From Winogradskyella sp. PG-2 (GTDB lineage Bacteria; Bacteroidota; Bacteroidia; Flavobacteriales; Flavobacteriaceae), in the NCBI RefSeq assembly GCF_000828715.1, contig NZ_AP014583.1, forward strand, positions 1,238,001 to 1,302,000: a stretch of DNA of 64,000 nt. The letters run 5' to 3'. Shown here piece after piece: positions 1,009 to 15,870 of the stretch; position 1 is the stretch's first letter; each line of letters starts with the position of its first letter. Made by a program: the position numbers and the translations under genes. The notes beneath the pieces were generated by a model. It saw only the letters and a list, made by a program, of their open reading frames with translations. It was not told where the DNA came from and made no database searches.

Positions 1009-2562
1009 TTACAGGTCAAACTTAATACCTTGTGCTAAAGGTAATTCATCGGAATAGTTGACTGTATTGGTTTGTCTTCTCATATAGACTTTCCAAGCAT
1101 CAGAACCAGACTCTCGTCCACCTCCTGTTTCTTTCTCGCCACCAAAAGCTCCACCAATTTCAGCACCAGATGTCCCAATATTTACATTAGCAATTCCACA
1201 ATCAGAACCAGCATAGGATAAGAACTTTTCAGCTTCTTTCATTTCATTAGTCATAATTGCAGATGATAATCCTTGCGCAACACCATTTTGTTTAGCGATT
1301 GCGTTTTCAACATCTCCAGAATATTTCATTAGATATAGAATCGGAGCAAATGTTTCGTGCTGTACGATTGCAAAATCGTTTTCTGCCCCTATAATTGCTG
1401 GTTTTACATAGCAACCAGATTCATAACCCTCTCCTTCTAATACTCCACCTTCAACCAATACATTTCCACCTTCAGCTTTTGCAGATTCTATAGCTGCTAA
1501 ATACGTATTTACAGCATCTTTATCAATCAAAGGACCAATATGATTGGTTTCATCTAATGGATTACCAATAGTTAATTGGCCGTAAGCACCAACAATCGCA
1601 TCGCGTACTTTATTATAAACTGATTCATGAATAATTAAACGACGTGTCGATGTGCAACGTTGACCACAAGTACCAACTGCACCAAAAACAGCACCAGGAA
1701 CTACAACTTTTAAATCTGCAGATGGTGTTATTATAATCGCATTGTTACCGCCTAATTCTAATAATGATTTTCCGAAACGCTCAGCAACCGTTGCTCCAAC
1801 AATACGTCCCATGCGTGTAGAACCTGTAGCAGATACTAAAGGTATTCTGTCATCAGTAGTCATGTACTCGCCAACTTTGTAATCACCATTCACTATACAA
1901 GAAATACCTTCTGGATAGTTATTCTCTTTTAAGATATCAGCTATAATATTTTGACAAGCCACAGAACATAAAGGTGCTTTTTCTGACGCTTTCCAAACAC
2001 AAACATCACCACAAATCCAAGCTAAAGCTGTATTCCAAGCCCAAACTGCTACTGGGAAGTTAAATGCTGAGATAATCCCAACTACACCTATAGGATGCCA
2101 TTGTTCCCTCATTACATGTCCAGGTCTTTCTGATGGAATAGTTTGCCCATTTAATTGTCTAGAAAGTCCAACTGCAAAATCACAGATATCAATCATCTCC
2201 TGTACTTCACCATAACCTTCTTGCAATGATTTACCCATTTCATAAGAGACTAGTTTTCCTAGAGGCTCTTTTAAATCTCTCAGTCTATTTCCAAACTGAC
2301 GAACCACTTCACCACGAACTGGTGCTGGCACATCTCTCCAAGATAAAAACGCTTTAGTGGCAGCATCCATTACCTTATCATAATCTGCACGTGTAGTCGT
2401 TTTTACTCTGCCAATCAGCTGTCCATCAACTGGAGAATATGATTCTATAATCTCACCATTAGAAAAATTATTTGATCCTGTTGAAGATCCTTCGTTTATA
2501 TCTTTAACACCTAACTGATTTAAAGCCTCTTTTATTCCGAAATCGGTAGCAATCGCTTCCAT
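1009..2562 (-). CDS. ALDH7-family aldehyde dehydrogenase (aminoadipate-semialdehyde / piperideine-6-carboxylate type)
   Basis: 517-residue NAD-dependent aldehyde dehydrogenase. The catalytic pair is visible: Glu269 in LELGGNN and the nucleophile Cys303 in GTCGQRCTSTRRL, the latter an ALDH7 (antiquitin/AmaB) signature, as is the C-terminal GGAFGGEKETGGGRESGSD stretch. ALDH7 members oxidise alpha-aminoadipate semialdehyde, in equilibrium with piperideine-6-carboxylate, in lysine/pipecolate breakdown; flavobacterial homologues are usually annotated this way. Cytoplasmic, no signal peptide, full family length. ATG at 2562 is the only good start. It is divergent from the asparaginase gene with a 121-base shared upstream region, and is followed closely by the small secreted protein. 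Substrate is inferred from the family, and no other lysine-degradation gene is present here. Confidence 0.9.
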   Translation of the reverse strand: MEAIATDFGIKEALNQLGVKDINEGSSTGSNNFSNGEIIESYSPVDGQLIGRVKTTTRADYDKVMDAATKAFLSWRDVPAPVRGEVVRQFGNRLRDLKEPLGKLVSYEMGKSLQEGYGEVQEMIDICDFAVGLSRQLNGQTIPSERPGHVMREQWHPIGVVGIISAFNFPVAVWAWNTALAWICGDVCVWKASEKAPLCSVACQNIIADILKENNYPEGISCIVNGDYKVGEYMTTDDRIPLVSATGSTRMGRIVGATVAERFGKSLLELGGNNAIIITPSADLKVVVPGAVFGAVGTCGQRCTSTRRLIIHESVYNKVRDAIVGAYGQLTIGNPLDETNHIGPLIDKDAVNTYLAAIESAKAEGGNVLVEGGVLEGEGYESGCYVKPAIIGAENDFAIVQHETFAPILYLMKYSGDVENAIAKQNGVAQGLSSAIMTNEMKEAEKFLSYAGSDCGIANVNIGTSGAEIGGAFGGEKETGGGRESGSDAWKVYMRRQTNTVNYSDELPLAQGIKFDL

Positions 2563-3763: not shown

Positions 3764-3829
3764 ACTGTAACAATTTAATACCTTTAAACACATATAGTTA
3801 ACCAACCTCAACTACAACCATCAACCTAA

Positions 3830-3855
3830 TTTACTTTCAACCTAAAGAAAGTAAA
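3830..3855 (+). promoter_or_regulatory. Perfect hairpin abutting the start codon of the first DUF6090 gene
   Basis: TTTACTTTC (3830-3838) pairs over nine bases with GAAAGTAAA (3847-3855), loop of eight. The last base of the stem is the A of the ATG at 3855, so the start region would be occluded if the RNA folds. There is no T run, so it is not a classical terminator. Confidence 0.45.
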
Positions 3856-4604
3856 TGATTAAATTTTTTCGCCGCATTAGGCAACAACTCCTTTCCGAAA
3901 AGAAATTTTCGAAATACCTCATCTATGCTATTGGCGAAATTATTCTTGTGGTAATTGGTATTCTCATTGCATTACAGATTAATAACTGGAATGAAAAACG
4001 GAAAACAAACATTCAACTAAAGTCTGCGCTTAAATCAGTATACAATGATATGGTTTCAGATAGTGTTATCTTATATCAAAGTTTACCATTGGTACATTTG
4101 CGAGATAGCACAATCGAAAGTTTAATAAAGCGTTCTTATGCCACAGAAACTAATCTCGACACTTTAGTTGCGATGATGCAAAATGAGTTTCCTCTAAGAT
4201 GGTATAATTCCCCAACATATAATAAAAACACCTTTACAAACCTAAAGAATACAGGAGCATTCGATATTTTACCTAATGATATTAAACTGTCTTTATCTGA
4301 ATATTATACCACTGTGGAATCTTATGAAACTCTGAACAAGACATTGTTAAATCAATATCGTACACAATTAGATGATTTTGTAAAACACTACAATATAATT
4401 GGTCGTTTTTATAACAGTAATTATAACAATAGTTATATATACAAAACTAGCTGGACCAATGTTGATGGCGCTGATTTTGCACCAAGAGTGGCTGTAATTT
4501 TAGCAGCGTATAACGTGTTATTCGGATACACTAAAGAAGAATTAGAAACCAATCTTATGAATTGTAGAGAAATTTTACCACAACTGAAACCATATATTGA
4601 TTAA
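3855..4604 (+). CDS. DUF6090 family membrane-anchored protein, copy 1
   Basis: 249 residues. The N-terminal 50 residues carry the family signature: MIKFFRRIRQ, a basic amphipathic start, then GEIILVVIGILIALQINNWNE, a single membrane helix at about residues 22-42 that ends in the invariant QINNWNE. The remaining 200 residues are mostly predicted helical and poorly conserved, probably on the periplasmic side. DUF6090 is a flavobacterial family with no known function. This is the first of four paralogues in 6 kb; the N-termini are almost identical while the C-terminal parts differ strongly. It is followed after 61 bases by the Asp-box protein. The hairpin at its start may govern expression of the chain. 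Confidence 0.88.
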   Translation: MIKFFRRIRQQLLSEKKFSKYLIYAIGEIILVVIGILIALQINNWNEKRKTNIQLKSALKSVYNDMVSDSVILYQSLPLVHLRDSTIESLIKRSYATETNLDTLVAMMQNEFPLRWYNSPTYNKNTFTNLKNTGAFDILPNDIKLSLSEYYTTVESYETLNKTLLNQYRTQLDDFVKHYNIIGRFYNSNYNNSYIYKTSWTNVDGADFAPRVAVILAAYNVLFGYTKEELETNLMNCREILPQLKPYID

Positions 4605-4665
4605 CATACAATAATTAAATTCTTTAACCAAAAATTAAATAAAACTACTAATCCATACCAAACAC

Positions 4666-7600
4666 ATGAAAATACTAAAAATTCTATTTATATGCATGCT
4701 TTTGCTCCCAATAAGTAACTATGCTCAAAAAAGAAAAAAGAAACCAACTGAGCCAACTATTAAACTTACAGACTCTCTTTTTCATGGCTTAAAATGGCGA
4801 AATATAGGACCTTTTAGAGGTGGTAGAAGTGTTACTTCTACTGGAGTCATCGGACGACCTCATACCTACTATATGGGTTCTACTGGTGGTGGTGTTTTTA
4901 AAACGACTGACGACGGTATTACATGGAAAAACATTTCTGATGGTTTCTTTAAAACAGGATCTATTGGTGCCATTGCAGTATCTGAAAGCGATGCCAATGT
5001 TGTAGTGGTTGGTATGGGAGAACATGCCGCTCGTGGTGTAATGACATCCATGGGAGATGGTGTGTACAAATCGATGGATGCCGGAAAAACATGGACACAT
5101 ATAGGATTAGAGAAAACCTATCATATTTCTGATGTGATTATACATCCTACTAATCCCAATACTATATATGTAACAGCACAAGGAGCACAATATGCACCTT
5201 CTAATGAAAGAGGTGTTTATAGAACAATGGATGGAGGTGCAACTTGGGAGAAATTACTTTATGTAAACACAACAACTGGAGCATCTTCTTTATCAATGGA
5301 CATGACTAACCCTCGCATATTATATGCTTCTATGTGGCAGCATCGTCGTTATCCTTGGATAATGGAATCTGGTGGTGAAAATTCAGGATTGTATAAGTCT
5401 ACAGATGGCGGAGATACTTGGGATAAAATGGAAGGAGGTTTACCAGACGCTTTTGGTAAATCGGGTATTTCTGTCTCTAGAGCAAATCCTGAACGTGTAT
5501 TTTCAGTTATAGAAGCAGAAGGTGAAAAAGGTGGAGTATACCGTTCTGATAATGCTGGTAAAACCTGGAAACAAGTCAATAAGAATCGCGTTAATATTGC
5601 GCGCTCATGGTATTACATGGAGATTTTTGCTGATCCACAAAATGAAAATGTAGTGTATGTATTAAATGCTCCTGTTATGAAATCTATTGATGGTGGAAGA
5701 AGCTTTTTTAATATTCCTGTGCCTCATGGAGATAATCATCATTTATGGATTAATCCGCACGATAATACAAATCTCATTAACTCTAATGATGGAGGAGCCA
5801 ATATCTCCTTTAATAGCGGAAAAAGTTGGAGCACACAACAAAACCAACCAACCTCTCAATTCTATCGTGTTATTACAGATAATTTAGTGCCATACAATGT
5901 CTATGGAGGTCAACAAGACAATTCAGCAATAGGTATTGCAAGCCGAACAAATGATGGAGGTATCGATTGGAAAGATTGGTATTCGGTTGCTGGAGGAGAA
6001 AGTGCTTTTATTGCTTTTGATCCAGATAATCCAGAAACTGTTTATGGTGGAACTTACCAAGGTAATATTAGCAAGTGGACCAAATCTTCTAGAGAACAAA
6101 AATCAATTAAGGAATATCCTGAATTGGGTCTAAGCATTGCTCCTAAAGATTCTAAATACCGTTATAACTGGAATGCTCCTATCATCACATCTCCTCACAA
6201 TAGAGCAACAGTTTATCATGCCGGAAATGTGGTTTTTAAAACCATGGATGGAGGAACAACTTGGAAAGCTATAAGCCTTGATCTTACAAAGAATGAAACA
6301 GAAAAACATGGTCCTGGTGGTGGACCATATACCAACGAAGCTGCCGGAGGAGAAAACTACAATACACTCACTGCCTTAGTAGAATCTCAACACCAAGAAG
6401 GAGTACTCTATGCTGGTAGTGATGATGGGCTTTTACATATTACAAAAGATGGAGGTGCAAGCTGGCAAAATATAACACCAAATGGCATTAAAGATGGCAT
6501 CATTAATAGTATAGATATCTCAGAACACGATCCGGCAACAGCCTATGTCGTTGTAATGCGCTATAAATCTTTAGACCTCAATTCTTATATTTTTAAAACC
6601 AATGACTATGGGCAATCATGGACTAAAACTGTAAACGGTCTTAATGATCCCAATGGATTTACGAGAGTGGTTAGAGCAGATAAAAAACGAAAAGGACTGT
6701 TATACGCAGGTACGGAAACAGGACTATATGTTTCTAATGATGATGGCACGCATTGGCAACATTTAAACTTAAATTTACCAACAGTTGCTATTAATGATTT
6801 AGTAATACAAGATAATGATTTGGTCGCAGCAACATCTGGTCGTGGTTTTTGGATTTTAGATGACTTAGGAGTACTCCAAAATATGAGTACAACCAAAAAC
6901 ACAGTTCAGCTATTTAAGCCAAAAGACACTTATCGTATTTTTGGTGGAACATCTAAAGCAACAGGACAAGGTCTTAATCCTCAGAGTGGAGTTACCTTAG
7001 ATTATTATTTAGATAAAGATGTAGATACGCTCGATTTAAAGCTAGACATTTTGGATGGCTCAAAAGTTATCAGAACCTATACCAATAAAAAGCCAAAGGG
7101 TTTTAAATCATGGCCAGGAGGACCAGCTAAACCTCAAGTTCTGCCATCTAAAAAAGGCTATAATCGATTCACTTGGAATTTTAATAGAGACCCATTACCT
7201 GCTATTAATAAAGTTTTCGTTTTTGGCGGACTCTCAGGCTCTAGTGTTGCTCCTGGAGATTACACCTTAAGATTAACATTAGATGGAGAAGCTGTTGAGA
7301 CTCAAGCCACCATTCTTCCTAATCCGGCTATCGATTCAAACTCTACTGATTTTGCTGAACAACAAAATATGCTAGTTACTATTGAGAACACCATTAAAGA
7401 TATGCATGAGTCTGTTAACCAAATGCGATCCGCAAAAACGCAACTAAACACATATGCTAAACTGTTAAAAGATAATGACAACGCTAAAGCGCTTAAAGAA
7501 AAAGGTGAAGCTCTCATAAAGCGCATTAATAGTTGGGAAGAAAACTTAATACAAGCGAAGCAAAAGACCTTTCAGGATGTTATCAATTTTAATAACAAAC

Positions 7601-7812
7601 TCAATGCACAGCTCATTCAACTACTTAGTTACATAGACCAAGCAGATCCAAAAGTGACGCAAGGTGCTAAAGAACGTTTTAATGATTTAATGCAAGATTG
7701 GCAAGTTTATAAAAATGAACGTGATGCTATTATAACTACTGAAATGGAGGCCTATAATACACTCTATAAATCATTAAATATACCAGCACTTATTCTTAAA
7801 AATAAGGAGTAA
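4666..7812 (+). CDS. Secreted Asp-box/VPS10-like beta-propeller protein (sortilin-like, BNR repeats), 1048 aa
   Basis: Signal peptide MKILKILFICMLLLPISNYAQ, then a long run of Asp-box hairpins of the S/TxDxGxTW type: TTDDGITW, SMDAGKTW, TMDGGATW, STDGGDTW, SDNAGKTW, TMDGGTTW, TKDGGASW, TNDYGQSW and SNDDGTHW, about ten in all, forming one or two large propellers of the sortilin (VPS10)/exo-xyloglucanase fold. Homologues are annotated as VPS10 domain-containing proteins or glycosyl hydrolases, but Asp-boxes do not prove glycosidase activity. About residues 700-860 look like beta-rich accessory domains; 880-1030 is helical, possibly coiled coil. It sits inside the DUF6090 chain: its TAA overlaps the ATG of DUF6090 copy 2 by one base, so they are very likely translated together. 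A shorter paralogue is at 44448-47291. Confidence 0.88.
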   Translation: MKILKILFICMLLLPISNYAQKRKKKPTEPTIKLTDSLFHGLKWRNIGPFRGGRSVTSTGVIGRPHTYYMGSTGGGVFKTTDDGITWKNISDGFFKTGSIGAIAVSESDANVVVVGMGEHAARGVMTSMGDGVYKSMDAGKTWTHIGLEKTYHISDVIIHPTNPNTIYVTAQGAQYAPSNERGVYRTMDGGATWEKLLYVNTTTGASSLSMDMTNPRILYASMWQHRRYPWIMESGGENSGLYKSTDGGDTWDKMEGGLPDAFGKSGISVSRANPERVFSVIEAEGEKGGVYRSDNAGKTWKQVNKNRVNIARSWYYMEIFADPQNENVVYVLNAPVMKSIDGGRSFFNIPVPHGDNHHLWINPHDNTNLINSNDGGANISFNSGKSWSTQQNQPTSQFYRVITDNLVPYNVYGGQQDNSAIGIASRTNDGGIDWKDWYSVAGGESAFIAFDPDNPETVYGGTYQGNISKWTKSSREQKSIKEYPELGLSIAPKDSKYRYNWNAPIITSPHNRATVYHAGNVVFKTMDGGTTWKAISLDLTKNETEKHGPGGGPYTNEAAGGENYNTLTALVESQHQEGVLYAGSDDGLLHITKDGGASWQNITPNGIKDGIINSIDISEHDPATAYVVVMRYKSLDLNSYIFKTNDYGQSWTKTVNGLNDPNGFTRVVRADKKRKGLLYAGTETGLYVSNDDGTHWQHLNLNLPTVAINDLVIQDNDLVAATSGRGFWILDDLGVLQNMSTTKNTVQLFKPKDTYRIFGGTSKATGQGLNPQSGVTLDYYLDKDVDTLDLKLDILDGSKVIRTYTNKKPKGFKSWPGGPAKPQVLPSKKGYNRFTWNFNRDPLPAINKVFVFGGLSGSSVAPGDYTLRLTLDGEAVETQATILPNPAIDSNSTDFAEQQNMLVTIENTIKDMHESVNQMRSAKTQLNTYAKLLKDNDNAKALKEKGEALIKRINSWEENLIQAKQKTFQDVINFNNKLNAQLIQLLSYIDQADPKVTQGAKERFNDLMQDWQVYKNERDAIITTEMEAYNTLYKSLNIPALILKNKE

Positions 7813-8570
7813 TGATTAAACTCTTCCGTCGCATTCGTCAAAAGCTAATTATGGAAAATAAGACATCCAAATACTTCAAATACGCCATTGGTGAAATTAT
7901 CTTGGTAGTAATTGGGATTCTGATTGCATTGCAAATTAATAATTGGAACCAAGAAAGAATAAATCAACAAAAAGCAATTGTTTACTTAAATAGTTTAATA
8001 GAAGACATAGAGTCTGATGTTATTAATTATAACGGCAACATTACTAATTACCAAACAAGCCTTAATAACAACAAAAGACTTCTAATTAACGATGATTATA
8101 AATTATTAGAAGGAGATTCTATTATAAAGCTTGTTTCTGGCTATTATGAAGTTGATAGAACATCTAGCCAAACTTACGAGAAAATTAAAAATGCAGGCCT
8201 CGCAGAATCTTTAGGCTCCGAAGAAGTTAACAAAGTAATTAATGATTACTATAATGCCCAAAAGAGTTATTATCAAACTATGTTGCGTTGGGATAAAGAT
8301 TTTAGTGACAAGGATGTAAATTTTTGGACCTATAACACTAATTACGAATCTAGTTCTATTAGAAATTATAATACAAACGCACTACCCTTTTTAAATAGTG
8401 CTGCCAAACGAAAAGAAGATTTAATAAACCTTATTGAGTCTACACAAGGCAGAAATCATTTGCGTAATGCAATAATTAGAAAAGAACATACACTATACAG
8501 GGCGAACGAGTTTGTCGTTACTGCAGAAAACCTAATTAATTTAATAACTAAAGAACTTAATAGTAAATGA
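7812..8570 (+). CDS. DUF6090 family membrane-anchored protein, copy 2
   Basis: 252 residues: MIKLFRRIRQKL, then KYAIGEIILVVIGILIALQINNWNQ as the single membrane helix (about 23-43), then a helical, Asn/Tyr-rich C-terminal domain unlike that of copy 1. The ATG overlaps the stop of the Asp-box gene by one base (TAATG) and the stop overlaps copy 3 by four bases (ATGA), which indicates translational coupling. Function unknown; topology (short cytoplasmic basic tail, one helix, large periplasmic helical domain) is inferred from the sequence. Confidence 0.88.
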   Translation: MIKLFRRIRQKLIMENKTSKYFKYAIGEIILVVIGILIALQINNWNQERINQQKAIVYLNSLIEDIESDVINYNGNITNYQTSLNNNKRLLINDDYKLLEGDSIIKLVSGYYEVDRTSSQTYEKIKNAGLAESLGSEEVNKVINDYYNAQKSYYQTMLRWDKDFSDKDVNFWTYNTNYESSSIRNYNTNALPFLNSAAKRKEDLINLIESTQGRNHLRNAIIRKEHTLYRANEFVVTAENLINLITKELNSK

Positions 8571-9334
8571 TTAAATTCTTTCGCAAAATACGCTACAACC
8601 TTATGGAACAAAACAAAACAGGCAAATACTTTAAATACGCCATTGGAGAAATTATCTTAGTGGTAATTGGGATTCTCATAGCACTACAGATTAACAATTG
8701 GAATGAGCAACGTAAAAACTCAAAACAAGAGCTTATACTTCTAAAACAACTGCAAACTGACATAAGTACCAACAGAGATAATGTTATCGAATTAAATGAA
8801 CGCCTTAATATTAATAAAGTTGGTGTTGATAGTCTTATTTTAAGACTAGATAAAAAGCAAAATGATTTAAAATTTATGCTTTTTCTATCTCAAACTATGA
8901 GAAAAAGTGATTTCAATAAAGCGAGTTCTGGCTATAATATTATGCAAAATGGCAAAGTATCTCTTATCTCTAATGAGAATATTCTAAAATCTGTACTTAA
9001 TATTTACGAAAATGATTTGCCAGATATAATAGATAGACAAGGTGTTATGAATAATCGTATTGACCAAATCCAAAATCAATTTATCAACAAATTGTTTGCA
9101 CTTGCATCAAATAATTGGAACGTTAAATTTAATAATTATGATGTCGTTGCTACAGAACTTTTTGAACCTTTAGATTTCGATACGCTTTCACAAAATATTG
9201 AATTTAAAAATACGCTTATACAACTTAGAAAGTTAATAGAAGCACGATTAGCCTATCTTAAAATTACAGAAAATAAACTAATGAAAACTATAGAACTTCT
9301 AGACTCTAAAACAAAATTAAATCTACATGATTAA
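8567..9334 (+). CDS. DUF6090 family membrane-anchored protein, copy 3
   Basis: 255 residues: MIKFFRKIRYNLMEQNKTGKYFKYAIGEI followed by the membrane helix and QINNWNE (about residues 24-47). The C-terminal domain is rich in Asn, Asp and Lys, probably helical, with no catalytic motif visible. It overlaps copy 2 by four bases and copy 4 by eight bases, one of the tightest joins in the window. Its N-terminal 150 bases are close to those of copies 2 and 4 at the DNA level, which suggests duplication or gene conversion restricted to the membrane segment. Confidence 0.88.
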   Translation: MIKFFRKIRYNLMEQNKTGKYFKYAIGEIILVVIGILIALQINNWNEQRKNSKQELILLKQLQTDISTNRDNVIELNERLNINKVGVDSLILRLDKKQNDLKFMLFLSQTMRKSDFNKASSGYNIMQNGKVSLISNENILKSVLNIYENDLPDIIDRQGVMNNRIDQIQNQFINKLFALASNNWNVKFNNYDVVATELFEPLDFDTLSQNIEFKNTLIQLRKLIEARLAYLKITENKLMKTIELLDSKTKLNLHD

Positions 9335-10073
9335 GTTCTTTCGTAAAATACGTTACAACCAAATGGAAGAAAACAAAATGGGTAAATACCTCAAATACGC
9401 TATTGGCGAGATTATCCTAGTCGTTATTGGTATTCTCATTGCACTACAGATTAATAATCGGAATGAAAACAACAAAGCACTTAAAAAAGAGCAAGCGTTT
9501 TTACAGGAAATTAACTTTGATTTTAAGTCTAATAAAACACAATTAGATTCTATTATTAGTTTCAATAAAGTGAGTTTTCATGCTAGTATAAGACTTTTAG
9601 AAATTATGGGAACCTTTGACTTAAAAAACCCCAAAAGAAATGAAGCAAATGCTCATTTTGCAGATAGCATGAAATATTATAACCGTTTAGCATGGAGAAA
9701 TAAATCGTTTAACCCTAAAAATGGTGCAGTAGAAGCGCTTTTAAATTCTTCATCATTCGATCTTATTAAAAACGATACTTTAAGACGTAATTTAATTTCT
9801 TGGAAAGATGTTTTGGGAGATTATTTAGAAGAAGAGCAATTTGCAGTTAATTTTCTAACTAATGAGTATGGTCCTTGGGTAAGAGCAAGTTTTGATCCAG
9901 ACCTCGATGACGACCCAGAAAACACAAAAGCGTTCTTTAGTAAAAGACATAGGAATTTTATAAACCAAAGAGCAGGAGATTTATATAACAATTTAACCAC
10001 AGTAAAAGAGGAAGGTGTTGTTGCTATGATTAATGATATTATTAGATTAACTGAACCTTTGAATAATAACTAA
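9327..10073 (+). CDS. DUF6090 family membrane-anchored protein, copy 4
   Basis: 248 residues: MIKFFRKIRYNQMEENKMGKYLKYAIGEI, membrane helix, then QINNRNE, so the otherwise invariant Trp of QINNWNE is Arg here. The periplasmic part contains conserved-looking FNPKNGAVEALLNSSSFDLIKND, a motif also recognisable in copy 1 (YNKNTFTNLKNTGAFDILPND), so these two share C-terminal ancestry. It overlaps copy 3 by eight bases and ends the chain; about 210 bases without a gene follow before the macroglobulin. Confidence 0.87.
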   Translation: MIKFFRKIRYNQMEENKMGKYLKYAIGEIILVVIGILIALQINNRNENNKALKKEQAFLQEINFDFKSNKTQLDSIISFNKVSFHASIRLLEIMGTFDLKNPKRNEANAHFADSMKYYNRLAWRNKSFNPKNGAVEALLNSSSFDLIKNDTLRRNLISWKDVLGDYLEEEQFAVNFLTNEYGPWVRASFDPDLDDDPENTKAFFSKRHRNFINQRAGDLYNNLTTVKEEGVVAMINDIIRLTEPLNNN

Positions 10074-10281: not shown

Positions 10282-13200
10282 ATGCACATCAAAAAACAAC
10301 TTGCCTTTCTAGCTCTAATTGTAATCGCAGTATCGTGTAAAAAGAAGCCTGTAGAAACCGATAATATTTTTAAGTACAGAGATTATATTAGTTATACCAC
10401 ATCTGGAGTGGTTTCGGTAACAGCGCCTATTAAAATTAATCTCGCTGAGGAAGTAGAAGGTTGGGAGACAGAGCAAGAATTAGATACGGATTTAATTAAA
10501 ACACAACCTCATATCCAAGGCACATTAAAAGCACTCAACAAACACACACTACTGTTTACACCAGATGAAGCTTTAGAACCTGCAACAGCTTATGGAGTTA
10601 CTGTAAAACTGGGTAATATTTATAAAACGATCCTTCAAGAATTTAAGAACTACACCTTTGAGTTTAAAACCATCACTCCGAGTTTTAGTATCATGACTAA
10701 TAATTTGCAGTCCTATAGTAAAGAATGGCAGTATGTATTAGGTCAATTACGCTCATCAGACGTTATTACTTTAGAAGATGCTAAACAATTAGTATCAGCA
10801 AAACAGAACAAAAAAGACCTCAACTTAGTTTGGTTAGAAGTGCCAGAACCTTCCAAATATTTTGAGTTTAGAATCGATAGTATTAAACGTAAAATAGAAG
10901 ACAGTAAAATTGATGTCTTTTGGAATGGTAAAGCCATAAAAGCCGAAAATAAAGGAGAGAACTTCATCAACATTCCTGGGAAAAACAACTTTAGTATTGT
11001 TGAGACTAATGTGATTCAAAATCCTGAGCAATACTTAGCAATTAACTTTTCAGATCCTTTAAAAAAGCAACAAAATTTTGCGGGTTTAGTGACTATTCAG
11101 AATGTGAAAAACCCAAAATATATCGTTGATGGTAATGTGTTGAAAGTATATACAGACGTCAAATTAGTCGGAGATATTAGAGTCGATGTCTTTACAGGTA
11201 TCAAAAACACAGACGGTTTCAAACTTAAAAACGCCTTCGCTCAAACCTTAACCTTCGAGGAATTAAAACCACAAGTACGTTTAGTAAGCAACGGTTCTAT
11301 TTTACCAAATTCAAAAGATTTAAAATTCAATTTTGAAGCTGTAAATCTAAGTAAGGTCGATGTTAGAGTCATTAAAATATTTGAAGACAATGTACTTCAG
11401 TTTTTACAAGAAAATAACATGAATAGTAACTACGAAAACTCAATAAAACAAGTTGGTCGACGTATTGCAAAAGAGACAATTACATTAATACAAGATAAAA
11501 GTCAGAATACCGCGAAATGGAAAGCCTACAGTATTGATTTATCTAAATATATACAAGCAGATCCTGGTGCGATTTACAGAGTAGAAGTTGGTTTTAAACG
11601 CAACTATTCCTTATACGATTGTTCATCAAAATCAAAAACTACAAACGTTGATGAGGATGAGTATTATGATGATTACTATGACGACTATTACGAGGAAGAT
11701 TTTTACGCCTCAGAGGATATTTCTGAAGAAGAGCAAGAATTAAGAGAAGAGCGTTATTGGGATAATCTCACCTACAGGTACAGAAATACGAATTACCGTT
11801 ATAGAGATAGAAACAATGCCTGCACAGATTCTTATTTTAATTATGGTAACAGAACCGTATCTCTAAATTTAATTGGTTCTAATCTTGGTGTGATTGCAAA
11901 ACAAGGCAACGATAATACGTACTTCTTTGCGGTCACCAATATTCTATCTACAGATCCTGAAGCAAGTGCAAAAGTCACTTTATATAATTATCAGCAACAA
12001 GAACTCGTAAATGGTAATACAAACAATGATGGTATTATAGAACTAGATACTAAAAAACGAGCTGCCTTTGCTATCGTATCTAAAGGAAAGAACGTAAGTT
12101 ATGTAAAGCTATTTGATGGTAATTCTTTATCACTAAGTAAATTCGATGTCTCAGGAAATAGATTACAACGTGGACTCAAAGGGTATATCTATGGCGAACG
12201 TGGTGTATGGAGACCAGGCGATAGTTTGTTCTTAACCTTTATGTTAAATCATAAAGCCAATAAACTACCAAAACGACATCCTGTAAAACTAGAAATTACT
12301 GATCCTGTTGGGAAGTTGGTATATAGAAAGGTATCTATTGATAACATTAATAATTTCTATGACTTTAAAGTACCAACGTCATCCGATTATAAAACAGGAA
12401 ACTATAATGCTAAGGTATCTGTTGGTGGAGCAAACTTTTCTAAAAATTTAAAGATCGAAACGGTTAAACCCAACCGATTAAAAATTAAAATAGATTTTAA
12501 AGACAACATCTTAAAAAATAAAGAAGCCTTAGAAGGTGACTTAAATGTAGCATGGTTGCATGGTGCACCTGCAAAGAATTTAAAAGCTGAAGTAAAAGCG
12601 AAATTCTCAACAGCTTACACCAGTTTTAAAGGGTATAAAAACTATGTATTTAATGACCCAACTAAAAATTTTAGCACTGAAGAAACCAATGTATTTGAAG
12701 GCTATTTAGATACAAATGGAAACGCTAAAATTGATGCAGAATTAAATATTGGAAGTAATGCTCCTGGTATGCTGAATGGACAATTTTTAGTCAGAGCCTT
12801 TGAAAATGGTGGTGACTTTTCGCTCGATGCATTCACAATGCCATATGCTCCATATGAGAGTTTCGTAGGCTTACAATCACCTAAAGGCAACAATTATGGA
12901 TCTTTCTTTACGGATGAAAATCACACCTTTGACATTGCAACAGTTACTGCTGAAGGGAAACCAATTCAACGTAAAAATTTAGAAGTAAAAGTCTATAAAA
13001 TTGAATGGCGTTGGTGGTGGAATTCCTCTTACGATAACTTATCGAGTTACGTATCGAGCAATTACCATAGACCTGTTCAGCAGTATTCTATCAATACAGA
13101 TGCTAAAGGAAAAGCAAGTTTTAAAGTTAATATTCCTGAAAATGATCGTGGTCGTTATTTAATCAGAATAGTAGATCCTGAAAGTGGTCATGCAACTGGT

Positions 13201-15870
13201 CGTACTGCGTATTTCTATAAAAACTGGTGGTCCAATTCAGCATCTGGCGATAAAGAAGCGGCTAAAATGTTGGTGTTCTCAACAGATAAAGACAACTATA
13301 ATGTTGGTGATACAGCAAAACTAACCTTCCCTTCTGGTAGCGAAGGCAGAGCTTTAGTAAGTATTGAAAATGGTACTGAGGTCTTACAACACCAATGGGT
13401 AAAAACGAAGCCAGGTGAAACCACAATTGATATTGTGGTGACAAAAGAGATGGCGCCAAATGTGTTTATTAATATTTCATTATTACAGCCACATGCTATT
13501 ACTTCTAATGATTTGCCAATTCGTTTATATGGAGTCATTCCTATGATGGTCGAAAATCCGGCAACAAAATTAGAACCACAAATTAGCATGCCAGATAAAA
13601 TTCAACCAGAGCAATCTTACGAAATCAAAGTCTCTGAAAAGAATAACAAAGCGATGACTTACACCATTGCTGTAGTTGAAGAAGGGCTTTTAGATTTAAC
13701 GCGTTTTAAAACACCTAACGCTTGGAATAGTTTCTACGCTCGTGAAGCTTTAGGAGTAAAAACCTGGGATATTTTCGATGATGTCATTGGAGCTTATTCT
13801 GGCAGTATAGATCAAGTATATGCAATTGGTGGAGATGGAGCTGCAGCTAAAGGCAAAAACAAAAAAGCAAATCGCTTTAAACCAGTGGTAACCTATATAG
13901 GACCTTTCGTTTTAAGTGAAGGAAAAACAAAAACACACCAACTAAAAATGCCAAACTATGTTGGTGCAGTAAGAACAATGGTTGTTGCAGGAAATAGTAA
14001 TACTGAAGCTTATGGAAGTACTGAGAAATCAGTACAAGTTAAAAAGCCACTAATGGTTTTAGCGACTTTACCACGTAAGTTAAGTCCTGGTGAAAAAGTA
14101 ACTCTCCCTGTAACGGTTTTTGCCATGGAAAAGAAAGTGAAAGACGTTAAACTTACGATAAACCTAAGTGATGGTATTACCGTAAAAGGGAACAAAACGC
14201 AATCACTTCAATTTAGTAAACCGGACGAGAAAATGGTCTATTTTAAATTGGATGTTACTAAAGCAAAAGGTATTAATACTATTGAAGTCGTTGCGACAGG
14301 AAATGGCGAGAAATCAACTTACAAAGTCGAGATTGATATTGAAAACCCTAACCCAATGACGTCTCGAGTTATCGACCAAGAGCTTCAAGCAAATAGCAAT
14401 CAAACTATAGATATTACAACTTTTGGTGTACCAGGAAGCAACTCAGCAACTGTAGAGTTTTCAACCTTACCTCCTATGGATTTCACAAAACGAATGGAGT
14501 ATTTAATTCGTTATCCTCATGGTTGTGTTGAGCAAACCACATCTGGTGTTTTCCCTCAATTATTCTTAACAGATATTTTTGATTTAACACCTCAAAAGAA
14601 AAAACAAGTACAGCGTAATATTGAAAGTGGTATTAGACGCTTAGGACGTTTTCAAAATGCTAGTGGTGGCTTAGGCTATTGGATGGGTGAAAGCTCTAAC
14701 AATGATTGGGGAACAAGTTATGCTGGTCATTTTATGATTGAAGCTGAGAAGAAAGGTTTTGTATTACCATTAACCTTTAAGAGTAATTGGATTGCATACC
14801 AAAGACAAGCGGCTCGTAATTGGAGACCAAGTTATAGACATTATCATAGTGATTTTGCACAAGCCTATCGTCTATATACATTGGCTTTGGCTGGTAGTCC
14901 GGATTTGGCGAGTATGAACCGTTTGAGAGAATTCGAGGAAATCTCTAATGACGCTAAATGGAGATTAGCTGCTGCCTATGTATTAGCTGGTCAAAAAGAG
15001 GCTAGTGATGCTATTTCTAAATTATCGAATATTGATTTTGAATCAGACAAAATAGATAATTATACTTATGGTTCCGTTTACCGAAATAGAGCAATGGCTT
15101 TAGAAACCATGTTGATTACTAATCATCCTAAGAAAACAGATTTGGCAAAATCGATTGCAAAATCCTTAGCAAGTGACCGTTGGATGAGTACACAAACTAC
15201 AGCCTATAATTTATTAGCGCTAGGAAAAATGATAAGTCAGAATGGTGGTAAAGAATTAAAGCTCACCTATAAAATCAATGGTAATACTGAAACGATAGAT
15301 ACTCGAAATGGAATTGCACAACGTAATATTCCTATCAATGAAGGAGTGAATCAGATGACGATTACAAATGCAAAAGACAATTTGGTCTATGTACGTGTTT
15401 TAAATTCTGGGAAATTAAAATTAGGCGAAGAGATAGCCGAACAACGCGGTTTCTCAATCTCTACAGTCTATAAAGATTTACAAGGCAATAAAATAGATGT
15501 CACCAAGCTACAACAAGGACAAGATTTTGTAGCGACAGTAAGTATTTCTAACCTAACTAGAGATTACGTTAATGATGTGGCTTTGACTCAGATTTTCCCA
15601 TCAGGTTGGGATATTGTAAATACACGTTTTACAGATTTTGGAGATACAACAGTAAGCAATGCTAGGTATACAGATATTAGAGATGATCGCGTAAACTTCT
15701 ATTTTAATATGAGTAGAAAAGGAAAACATGGTGCCAAAACATTTACTGTAATGTTAAATGCATCTTATTTAGGGACCTATTACCTGCCTGGAGCACAAGC
15801 TGAAGCCATGTACGATAATGATGATTATCTCGTAAGGAACAAAGGGAAATGGGTAATCGTTGAAAAATAA
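10282..15870 (+). CDS. Bacterial alpha-2-macroglobulin, thioester type, lipoprotein (YfhM-like)
   Basis: 1862 residues, one of the longest genes here. Lipoprotein signal with Cys19 in VIAVSCKKKP, so it is membrane-anchored facing the periplasm. It follows the macroglobulin plan: several MG domains, MG2-like region around residue 620-720 (GYIYGERGVWRPGDSLFLTF is the typical entry), and the thioester domain with GCVEQT, where Cys1415 and Gln1418 would form the internal thioester that traps attacking proteases. E. coli YfaS lacks this motif while YfhM has it. An unusual acidic, Tyr-rich segment (about residues 456-480: DEDEYYDDYYDDYYEED) interrupts the N-terminal third. In many bacteria such genes pair with PBP1C; here the PBP1C gene lies 4.8 kb downstream, with four genes between. 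Confidence 0.93.
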   Translation: MHIKKQLAFLALIVIAVSCKKKPVETDNIFKYRDYISYTTSGVVSVTAPIKINLAEEVEGWETEQELDTDLIKTQPHIQGTLKALNKHTLLFTPDEALEPATAYGVTVKLGNIYKTILQEFKNYTFEFKTITPSFSIMTNNLQSYSKEWQYVLGQLRSSDVITLEDAKQLVSAKQNKKDLNLVWLEVPEPSKYFEFRIDSIKRKIEDSKIDVFWNGKAIKAENKGENFINIPGKNNFSIVETNVIQNPEQYLAINFSDPLKKQQNFAGLVTIQNVKNPKYIVDGNVLKVYTDVKLVGDIRVDVFTGIKNTDGFKLKNAFAQTLTFEELKPQVRLVSNGSILPNSKDLKFNFEAVNLSKVDVRVIKIFEDNVLQFLQENNMNSNYENSIKQVGRRIAKETITLIQDKSQNTAKWKAYSIDLSKYIQADPGAIYRVEVGFKRNYSLYDCSSKSKTTNVDEDEYYDDYYDDYYEEDFYASEDISEEEQELREERYWDNLTYRYRNTNYRYRDRNNACTDSYFNYGNRTVSLNLIGSNLGVIAKQGNDNTYFFAVTNILSTDPEASAKVTLYNYQQQELVNGNTNNDGIIELDTKKRAAFAIVSKGKNVSYVKLFDGNSLSLSKFDVSGNRLQRGLKGYIYGERGVWRPGDSLFLTFMLNHKANKLPKRHPVKLEITDPVGKLVYRKVSIDNINNFYDFKVPTSSDYKTGNYNAKVSVGGANFSKNLKIETVKPNRLKIKIDFKDNILKNKEALEGDLNVAWLHGAPAKNLKAEVKAKFSTAYTSFKGYKNYVFNDPTKNFSTEETNVFEGYLDTNGNAKIDAELNIGSNAPGMLNGQFLVRAFENGGDFSLDAFTMPYAPYESFVGLQSPKGNNYGSFFTDENHTFDIATVTAEGKPIQRKNLEVKVYKIEWRWWWNSSYDNLSSYVSSNYHRPVQQYSINTDAKGKASFKVNIPENDRGRYLIRIVDPESGHATGRTAYFYKNWWSNSASGDKEAAKMLVFSTDKDNYNVGDTAKLTFPSGSEGRALVSIENGTEVLQHQWVKTKPGETTIDIVVTKEMAPNVFINISLLQPHAITSNDLPIRLYGVIPMMVENPATKLEPQISMPDKIQPEQSYEIKVSEKNNKAMTYTIAVVEEGLLDLTRFKTPNAWNSFYAREALGVKTWDIFDDVIGAYSGSIDQVYAIGGDGAAAKGKNKKANRFKPVVTYIGPFVLSEGKTKTHQLKMPNYVGAVRTMVVAGNSNTEAYGSTEKSVQVKKPLMVLATLPRKLSPGEKVTLPVTVFAMEKKVKDVKLTINLSDGITVKGNKTQSLQFSKPDEKMVYFKLDVTKAKGINTIEVVATGNGEKSTYKVEIDIENPNPMTSRVIDQELQANSNQTIDITTFGVPGSNSATVEFSTLPPMDFTKRMEYLIRYPHGCVEQTTSGVFPQLFLTDIFDLTPQKKKQVQRNIESGIRRLGRFQNASGGLGYWMGESSNNDWGTSYAGHFMIEAEKKGFVLPLTFKSNWIAYQRQAARNWRPSYRHYHSDFAQAYRLYTLALAGSPDLASMNRLREFEEISNDAKWRLAAAYVLAGQKEASDAISKLSNIDFESDKIDNYTYGSVYRNRAMALETMLITNHPKKTDLAKSIAKSLASDRWMSTQTTAYNLLALGKMISQNGGKELKLTYKINGNTETIDTRNGIAQRNIPINEGVNQMTITNAKDNLVYVRVLNSGKLKLGEEIAEQRGFSISTVYKDLQGNKIDVTKLQQGQDFVATVSISNLTRDYVNDVALTQIFPSGWDIVNTRFTDFGDTTVSNARYTDIRDDRVNFYFNMSRKGKHGAKTFTVMLNASYLGTYYLPGAQAEAMYDNDDYLVRNKGKWVIVEK

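Follow-up and report, generated by a model that had tools for sequence, protein, structure and literature searches.

A genomic hotspot of DUF6090 genes in Winogradskyella, with anchors and ectodomains that appear to be recombined

What does a bacterium gain from a row of small membrane proteins that keep one membrane segment nearly constant and attach unrelated outer domains to it? The question is raised by a 64,000-nucleotide stretch of the Winogradskyella sp. PG-2 genome (NZ_AP014583.1, positions 1,238,001 to 1,302,000; hereafter the window), which holds four genes of the DUF6090 family (PF19578), one of them separated from the other three by the gene for a large propeller protein. Coordinates are counted from the first base of the window, except those prefixed C1, which refer to the one contig that makes up the genome (3.81 Mb). 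DUF6090 carries no assigned role in Pfam, and in the open-access literature we found no paper that names it. We report that the window chain is a genomic hotspot island holding a changeable set of DUF6090 genes, and that the anchors and ectodomains of these genes evolve apart and appear to have been recombined. As to function, we tentatively favor an inner-membrane, periplasm-facing recognition or immunity repertoire, a reading to which we give a probability of about 0.4.

The DUF6090 chain and its genomic site

Five open reading frames (ORFs) on the plus strand make up the chain, just as the initial annotation had placed them: DUF6090 copy 1 (3855..4604, anchor 3855-3992), the propeller gene (4666..7812), and DUF6090 copies 2 (7812..8570, anchor 7812-7949), 3 (8567..9334, anchor 8567-8704) and 4 (9327..10073, anchor 9327-9464). 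All four small proteins exceed the curated PF19578 cut-off of 23.5 bits, with scores of 35.3, 33.4, 29.3 and 36.9 bits in chain order (range 29.3-36.9), which bears out their description as DUF6090 paralogues. The propeller, a Sortilin-Vps10/BNR protein of 1048 residues that is presumed to be secreted, scores 111.4 bits against PF15902 (curated cut-off 33 bits). The predicted overlaps were also found, i.e. 1 base between the propeller gene and copy 2 (TAATG), 4 between copies 2 and 3 (ATGA) and 8 between copies 3 and 4 (ATGATTAA). The propeller gene had been called locked into the chain; this is so on its 3' side but not on its 5' side, where 61 bases separate it from copy 1. G+C content of the four DUF6090 genes is 0.28-0.31, and the four ectodomains give no mutual match better than E 0.31. 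The genome as a whole has 26 PF19578 matches, 24 of them above the family cut-off, and 22 of the 26 copies lie outside the window chain.

The chain is bordered on the left by an asparaginase gene (PF01112; 2684..3763, plus strand) and on the right by a bacterial alpha-2-macroglobulin gene (10282..15870, plus strand). The corresponding site was located through the asparaginase orthologue (at least 73% identity) in 32 of 67 congeners, and the regions downstream were labelled. Among these 33 genomes, PG-2 included, 13 sites are empty, with asparaginase followed directly by alpha-2-macroglobulin, 15 hold DUF6090 genes, and 5 are otherwise arranged. Occupied sites bear 1, 3, 4, 5 or 14 DUF6090 genes (at least 2 in G171, where a contig end cuts the site). 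Upstream of the macroglobulin gene, 10 of the 13 empty and 13 of the 15 occupied sites share a motif; the right border is less sure in G195, where a macroglobulin-labelled gene (72%) lies at the end of the stretch and its upstream sequence lacks the common motif. An aldehyde dehydrogenase gene (1009..2562, minus strand) forms the outer left frame, with 74-96% identity in 30 of the 32 congeneric regions, those in which the gene was reached.

Contents of the site vary. Three of the four window ectodomain types recur there (above 50% identity), in 4 of the 14 occupied congeners. The neighbouring dehydrogenase of congener G152 is 96% identical to that of PG-2, yet G152 shares only two window ectodomain types (84% and 78%), as orthologues of copies 1 and 3, and has no propeller. 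The copy 3 type is also present in G178 (72%), and the copy 4 type occupies the same locus in G158 (79%) and G211 (85%); across all 67 congeners, two have the copy 4 type at 79% or more and another three at 42-46%. The copy 2 type was not found at the site in any congener at more than 50% identity. Other cargo of the 15 occupied sites includes the propeller (6 sites) and a cyclase-like gene (5 sites).

Anchors, ectodomains and gene starts

The build of constant anchor and variable outer domain, first proposed for this chain, proved to be a real modular one, with evidence of recombination between the modules. We examined 94 DUF6090 genes chosen by a motif that restricts ten anchor columns to residue classes; 10 ORFs lacking the motif were left out, as were those with too short an anchor or ectodomain. 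The shared anchor is conserved beyond chance across this set: in 19 of 45 columns a single residue accounts for at least 90%, and 9 columns show no variation at the printed precision. The nearest relative of the ectodomain is in another genome for 80 of the 90 genes with a match. For the anchor, a same-genome nearest relative is seen in 52.8 of 94 (11.5 when labels were shuffled). An apparent closeness of the anchor to a home paralogue in 55 of 64 cases was set aside, since one orthologue had been compared with the best of many paralogues.

A larger set comprised 251 motif-matching genes from 55 genomes, in which only pairs with unrelated ectodomains were compared; pairs in the within- and between-genome, adjacency and leader-first comparisons are not independent, so that p-values are guides only. 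Anchors at least 85% identical were found in 30 of 1004 within-genome pairs versus 32 of 26813 between-genome pairs, and anchors at least 90% identical in 6 versus none; in such within-genome pairs the identity drops after about nucleotide 135-150. Anchor identity is 0.731 for adjacent genes, 0.702 at 1.3-4 kb, 0.676 beyond 4 kb, 0.696 for other loci of the same genome and 0.667 for other genomes (adjacent versus other locus, p = 3e-5). For the 43 proteins of the copy 1 (3855) type, anchor identity is 0.75-0.80 at any ectodomain identity (Spearman -0.14 and -0.06). Some anchors carry 7-residue inserts. Between copy 1 and its G152 orthologue, the anchor has a synonymous divergence (dS) of 1.67 and the ectodomain one of 0.49, the only pair for which a higher anchor dS is clear; dS is saturated in the anchor of copy 3 (8567) versus G178 and in the ectodomain of copy 1 (3855) versus G148. 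Exchange of the modules would, on these comparisons, have taken place between species.

The first position of the chain has properties of its own. Copy 1 is preceded by a leader of about 70-90 bases that is common to the first genes of islands (3782..3854, plus strand) and that a 97-base query matched in 31 of 68 genomes. The leader stands behind asparaginase in 12 of the 15 occupied and none of the 13 empty sites (11 and none with a simpler pattern); 12 of the 13 empty-site genomes have no leader match at all, and the thirteenth, G187, has one elsewhere. We inspected 30 of the 35 leader matches. Of the next ORFs with at least 90 residues, 20 are DUF6090 genes (about 200 bases off in 3 cases), 6 are cyclase-like and 4 TerB-like.

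Leader and anchor of copy 1 are together 81% identical over 229 bases to a DUF6090 gene at C1:2.26 Mb, and the similarity stops at the anchor end; that gene lies among what appear by eye to be kynurenine-pathway genes. The copy 1 anchor has an identity of 0.83 to those of the first-position genes of G183 and G157, with unrelated ectodomains, versus 0.73 to that of its G152 orthologue, whose ectodomain is 86% identical and which occupies an internal position. Compared among genomes, leader-first anchors have a mean identity of 0.796 (13 pairs from 6 genomes); their identity to internal genes is 0.670 in the same genome and 0.678 in others. The leader and anchor at first position thus appear, from these alignments, to stay while the ectodomain behind them differs. 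G152 also bears a relic, a leader with the first anchor bases followed by an intact other DUF6090 gene (L182, minus strand, about 17115-16980), which is what anchor-anchor recombination would leave. Taken together, the hotspot, the module exchange and the positional anchor are in our view highly probable.

A perfect 10-bp inverted repeat with an 8-base loop (3829..3856, plus strand) extends into the copy 1 start codon, so that control of translation of the first DUF6090 gene is conceivable. The TerB-like gene (labelled by eye, about 110 residues, WTKTELQ.YI.LLCANAD) recurs beside DUF6090 genes (L147, L169, L173, L130, L223, L232, L236 and L238).

The overlaps in the chain can be traced to the start sequence. 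The commonest DUF6090 start is ATGATTAA(A), and 44 of 87 starts read ATGATTAAA. ATGATTAA contains stops in both other frames, TGA in one and TAA in the second; overlaps of 4 (ATGA) or 8 bases (ATGATTAA) therefore arise because an upstream gene in either other frame stops inside the start sequence, and TAATG gives the 1-base overlap. Overlaps of 8, 4 and 1 bases occur in 18, 13 and 4 of 50 adjacent DUF6090 pairs at the window and propeller loci, and in 18, 25 and 4 of 92 pairs from 40 other family loci and this genome. From this pattern we infer translational coupling. Among 190 DUF6090 ORFs, 92 are behind another DUF6090 gene, 16 behind other genes, 79 free and 3 at edges, numbers that speak against a fixed partner. 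A separate survey of free-standing starts covered 60 of 93. The only coupled upstream genes that recur, judged by eye, are the TerB-like gene of about 110 residues (3 of 16) and a gene of 139/144 residues (2 of 16).

Cassette arrays elsewhere in the genome

Away from the window, DUF6090 genes are also carried by integron-like arrays. An attC-like site lies downstream of 15 of the 26 copies, within 46 bases in 14 cases and at 245 in one, and these copies belong to arrays in which most genes stand singly between such sites. With a covariance model built from 34 sites we found 104 in the genome at E <= 0.01, 90 of them in three stretches (C1:2341-2443 kb, 2520-2581 kb and 3263-3282 kb), where all are on one strand. 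Every one of the 68 genomes of the genus, PG-2 included, has attC-like sites, from 1 to at least 49 each. In the stems of the 34 sites, 96.5% of cells are paired and 11 of 17 pairs show two-sided change (0 of 500 shuffles).

It is a rule of integron cassettes that the start of a cassette complements its own end. Of the 74 neighbouring-site pairs here, 31 have a cassette whose first eight bases complement its own end at all eight positions (5000 permutations gave a mean of 2.0 and a maximum of 7), and 37 reach seven or more; not every pair fits. The test covered 97 of the 104 sites, with neighbours up to 2.6 kb apart (32 of 86 pairs at 4 kb), and an earlier hand-picked set of 42 sites had given exact complementarity in 23 of 33 pairs.

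Tyrosine recombinase genes are found at two array ends. The recombinase at C1:2442413-2443540 lacks the IntI-specific insert: where IntI4 (2a3v) has 61 residues between aligned blocks, it has 19. The two recombinases score 199.5 and 184.6 bits, short of the cut-off of 265; the best score of the aligned recombinase is to the XerA-like model NF040815 (242.8 bits, cut-off 220), to which the second scores 199.2. TIGR02249 gave 9 recombinase matches in the genome at E <= 10 and none in the window (C1:1238001-1302000). The single match of the attC-like model in the window falls within the propeller gene (17.4 bits, E 0.026); none lies between the chain genes. That the window chain itself consists of integron cassettes is ruled out by this lack of attC-like sites between its genes. 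In the open-access literature we found no paper on Winogradskyella together with integrons.

Cargo among the 45 other array ORFs is mixed and includes beta-lactamase-fold hydrolases, GNATs, a type III restriction system and Fic. Several cassette genes are present twice: a GNAT gene with 100% identical proteins in different arrays (2418773 and 2564609), a small lipoprotein-like gene (2419471 and 2566417; 100% identical, 209 residues shared), a 277-residue gene (2428405 and 3280755; 100% identical proteins) and a 345-residue DUF6090 gene (99.7% identity). Three ORFs (L027 5053-6006 and 10370-11092; L031 3-515) have at their start a recurrent short repeat that is read through as MRRASLRHTQWAL and that probably gives rise to false N-termini in database entries.

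Possible function and known systems

A DUF6090 protein would be an inner-membrane protein with a short basic cytoplasmic N-terminus, one membrane helix and a C-terminal periplasmic four-helix bundle. AlphaFold2 gave copy 1 a predicted local distance difference test score (pLDDT) of 90.9 and a predicted template modelling score (pTM) of 0.74, and copy 4 a pLDDT of 85.1 and a pTM of 0.70. Both are predicted with the same order of parts: a short N-terminal helix, a helix from residue 18 to 94/95 that crosses the membrane segment and runs on outward, then short helices, one long helix and a terminal helical part. The idea that the outer domains differ thus held for their sequences but not for predicted structure, the two modelled copies sharing one helical architecture. 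Foldseek found no match for the copy 4 model at E <= 0.001 in PDB or BFVD, and VIA-align, by which alone the copy 1 model was compared, placed all rows for both models within the helical-bundle background; with no structure match above background, no fold family was assigned.

The ectodomains are diverse, and each type seems to be an old, conserved module. Clustering 251 of them at 35% identity gave 153 types, 110 of them single, and 40 of the 43 multi-member types occur in more than one genome. The ratio of nonsynonymous to synonymous divergence (dN/dS) is 0.05-0.23 for the ectodomains of five computable locus pairs (dS above 1 in three), and some ectodomain residues are invariant across 38 sequences down to 50% identity. 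If types are old and conserved, variety lies in the set of types that each strain carries and not in rapid change within a type. With one genome taken per genus, 91 of 149 genomes of the bacterial family have a PF19578 match, as do 41 of 247 sampled from the phylum.

A repertoire directed at variable outside factors is consistent with the many ectodomain types, the gain and loss of genes at one fixed site, the storage in cassettes and the absence of a fixed partner. We envision that new DUF6090 genes would be added at ATGATTAA, the start sequence that closes any frame entering from upstream and would couple translation, and that homologous exchange between similar 5' ends could swap anchors and ectodomains and gain or lose genes. 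The leader and anchor at first position might stay as an entry or expression module. Each ectodomain would block or titrate a particular incoming factor, perhaps a competitor's toxin or a phage entry protein, with the constant anchor fixing its location or docking on a core membrane partner. The putative immunity-like role named in the initial annotation is compatible with the hotspot and cassette behaviour. A more elaborate version, speculative and rather unlikely as a whole, is a two-tier system in which integron-like cassettes of non-IntI type would hold a DUF6090 reservoir and islands would recombine leader and anchor onto new ectodomains, yielding strain-specific periplasmic binders against competitors or phages.

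Several observations weigh against this account of module exchange and of a recognition or immunity role. The leader is directly before the first DUF6090 gene in only 6 of the 15 occupied sites. Likeness of anchors within a genome is partly due to codon usage and shared residues: a codon-usage null gives 42.5 +/- 3.3 same-genome anchors of 94 (maximum 50.5 in 200) versus the 52.8 observed, and in a controlled comparison, where the home mean was higher in 46 of 72 cases, the average excess is modest (0.702 for home, 0.678 for orthologue and 0.665 for other foreign anchors). Anchor and ectodomain identity correlate weakly for the 91 proteins of the copy 4 (9327) type (0.24 and 0.33), and ectodomain dS exceeds anchor dS in three of five other locus pairs (8567/G152, 9327/G158 and 9327/G211). 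The ectodomains look to be under purifying selection, where an arms race would lead one to expect diversifying selection, and the predicted fold is a generic helical bundle, which supports no function. PADLOC gave no match for the four window DUF6090 proteins, and no immunity family is among the 25 listed of the 41 Pfam families matched by the 45 other cassette ORFs.

Purifying selection and the continuous helix fit as well with a set of sensors, in which the ectodomain is a ligand-binding four-helix bundle and the membrane helix with its cytoplasmic stub signals to one shared partner; we regard this explanation as doubtful, though it fares best among the alternatives. A mostly selfish or neutral expansion, in which DUF6090 would spread through recombination of its 5' module and ready coupling to host operons while bringing the cell little benefit, would account for the many sites, the free gain and loss, the 13 empty sites among 33 and the carriage in cassettes. 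It is improbable to us because the low ectodomain dN/dS at the locus (0.05-0.23) and the residues kept across the 38 sequences argue for selection for function.

The initial annotation also suggested action together with the propeller. Linkage does exist: among 60 genomes, PG-2 included, all eight congeneric propeller orthologues (at least 70% identity) have a DUF6090 gene no more than about 140 bases away, and their loci represent at least four neighbourhoods. The genome has five propeller genes (C1:1242666, 1588040, 2777321, 3358134 and 3379183), of which only the window one adjoins DUF6090, and none of five inspected propeller paralogue regions contains DUF6090. Linkage weakens among wider relatives: for the best 80 of 353 in the named collection, a DUF6090 gene lies within 10 kb in 21 and within 250 bases in 14, leaving 59 without one (up to 10 kb was examined, some loci being cut by contig ends, and adjacency was taken from listed coordinates). 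The propeller thus prefers DUF6090 neighbours without depending on them and is optional hotspot cargo. As an obligate DUF6090 partner it is ruled out by the empty and propeller-free sites. That DUF6090 proteins are dedicated partners or anchors of the propeller at the cell surface is very improbable, despite the congeneric linkage, given the 9 of 15 occupied hotspots that are propeller-free, the 59 of 80 relatives and the 22 of 26 copies elsewhere in the genome.

As a repertoire with empty sites, movable ectodomains and a positional anchor, DUF6090 turns from a set of hypothetical proteins into a testable system. If it is true that the ectodomains bind foreign factors, they would constitute a new and easily mined defence family in marine Bacteroidota.

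Among known systems, the four-helix-bundle (4HB) ligand-binding domains of chemoreceptors resemble the DUF6090 models in that the predicted membrane helix is continuous with a periplasmic four-helix bundle; unlike them, DUF6090 is predicted to have one membrane pass and no cytoplasmic signalling domain. Z scores in the fold comparison do not rise above the helical-bundle background. The pilE/pilS, vlsE and hsdS systems are expression-site or module-shuffling systems, with a constant 5' part at one position and a downstream part changed by recombination, as in the islands. They differ in that the other DUF6090 members are full-length and that exchange would have occurred between species, not having been seen within a strain.

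Chromosomal integrons, as described in PMC9668308 and PMC8618304, are like the arrays elsewhere in the genome in the covarying attC-like stems, the excess of complementarity between own start and own end, the placement of all sites of the three main stretches on one strand and the recombinase gene at the end of two of these stretches. They are unlike in that the aligned recombinase lacks the IntI-specific insert, and the window chain itself is not an integron. Genus-wide attC-like sites along with a recombinase lacking that insert bear on the extent of integron-type capture.

With rAID arrays, the window DUF6090 genes share their co-orientation, short length and low G+C (0.28-0.31), and the cassette arrays with 15 DUF6090 copies share an end tyrosine recombinase and repeated intergenic motifs. 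The window chain differs: it has no recombinase match and no intergenic repeat, and its genes overlap. Genes of rAID arrays encode orphan immunity proteins; for DUF6090 no cognate toxin and no toxin-immunity relation are known, and its members share an anchor, the two modelled ones also an architecture. The formation of rAID arrays is, in PMC12247911, described as not yet clear, and the attC-like arrays found here may bear on it.

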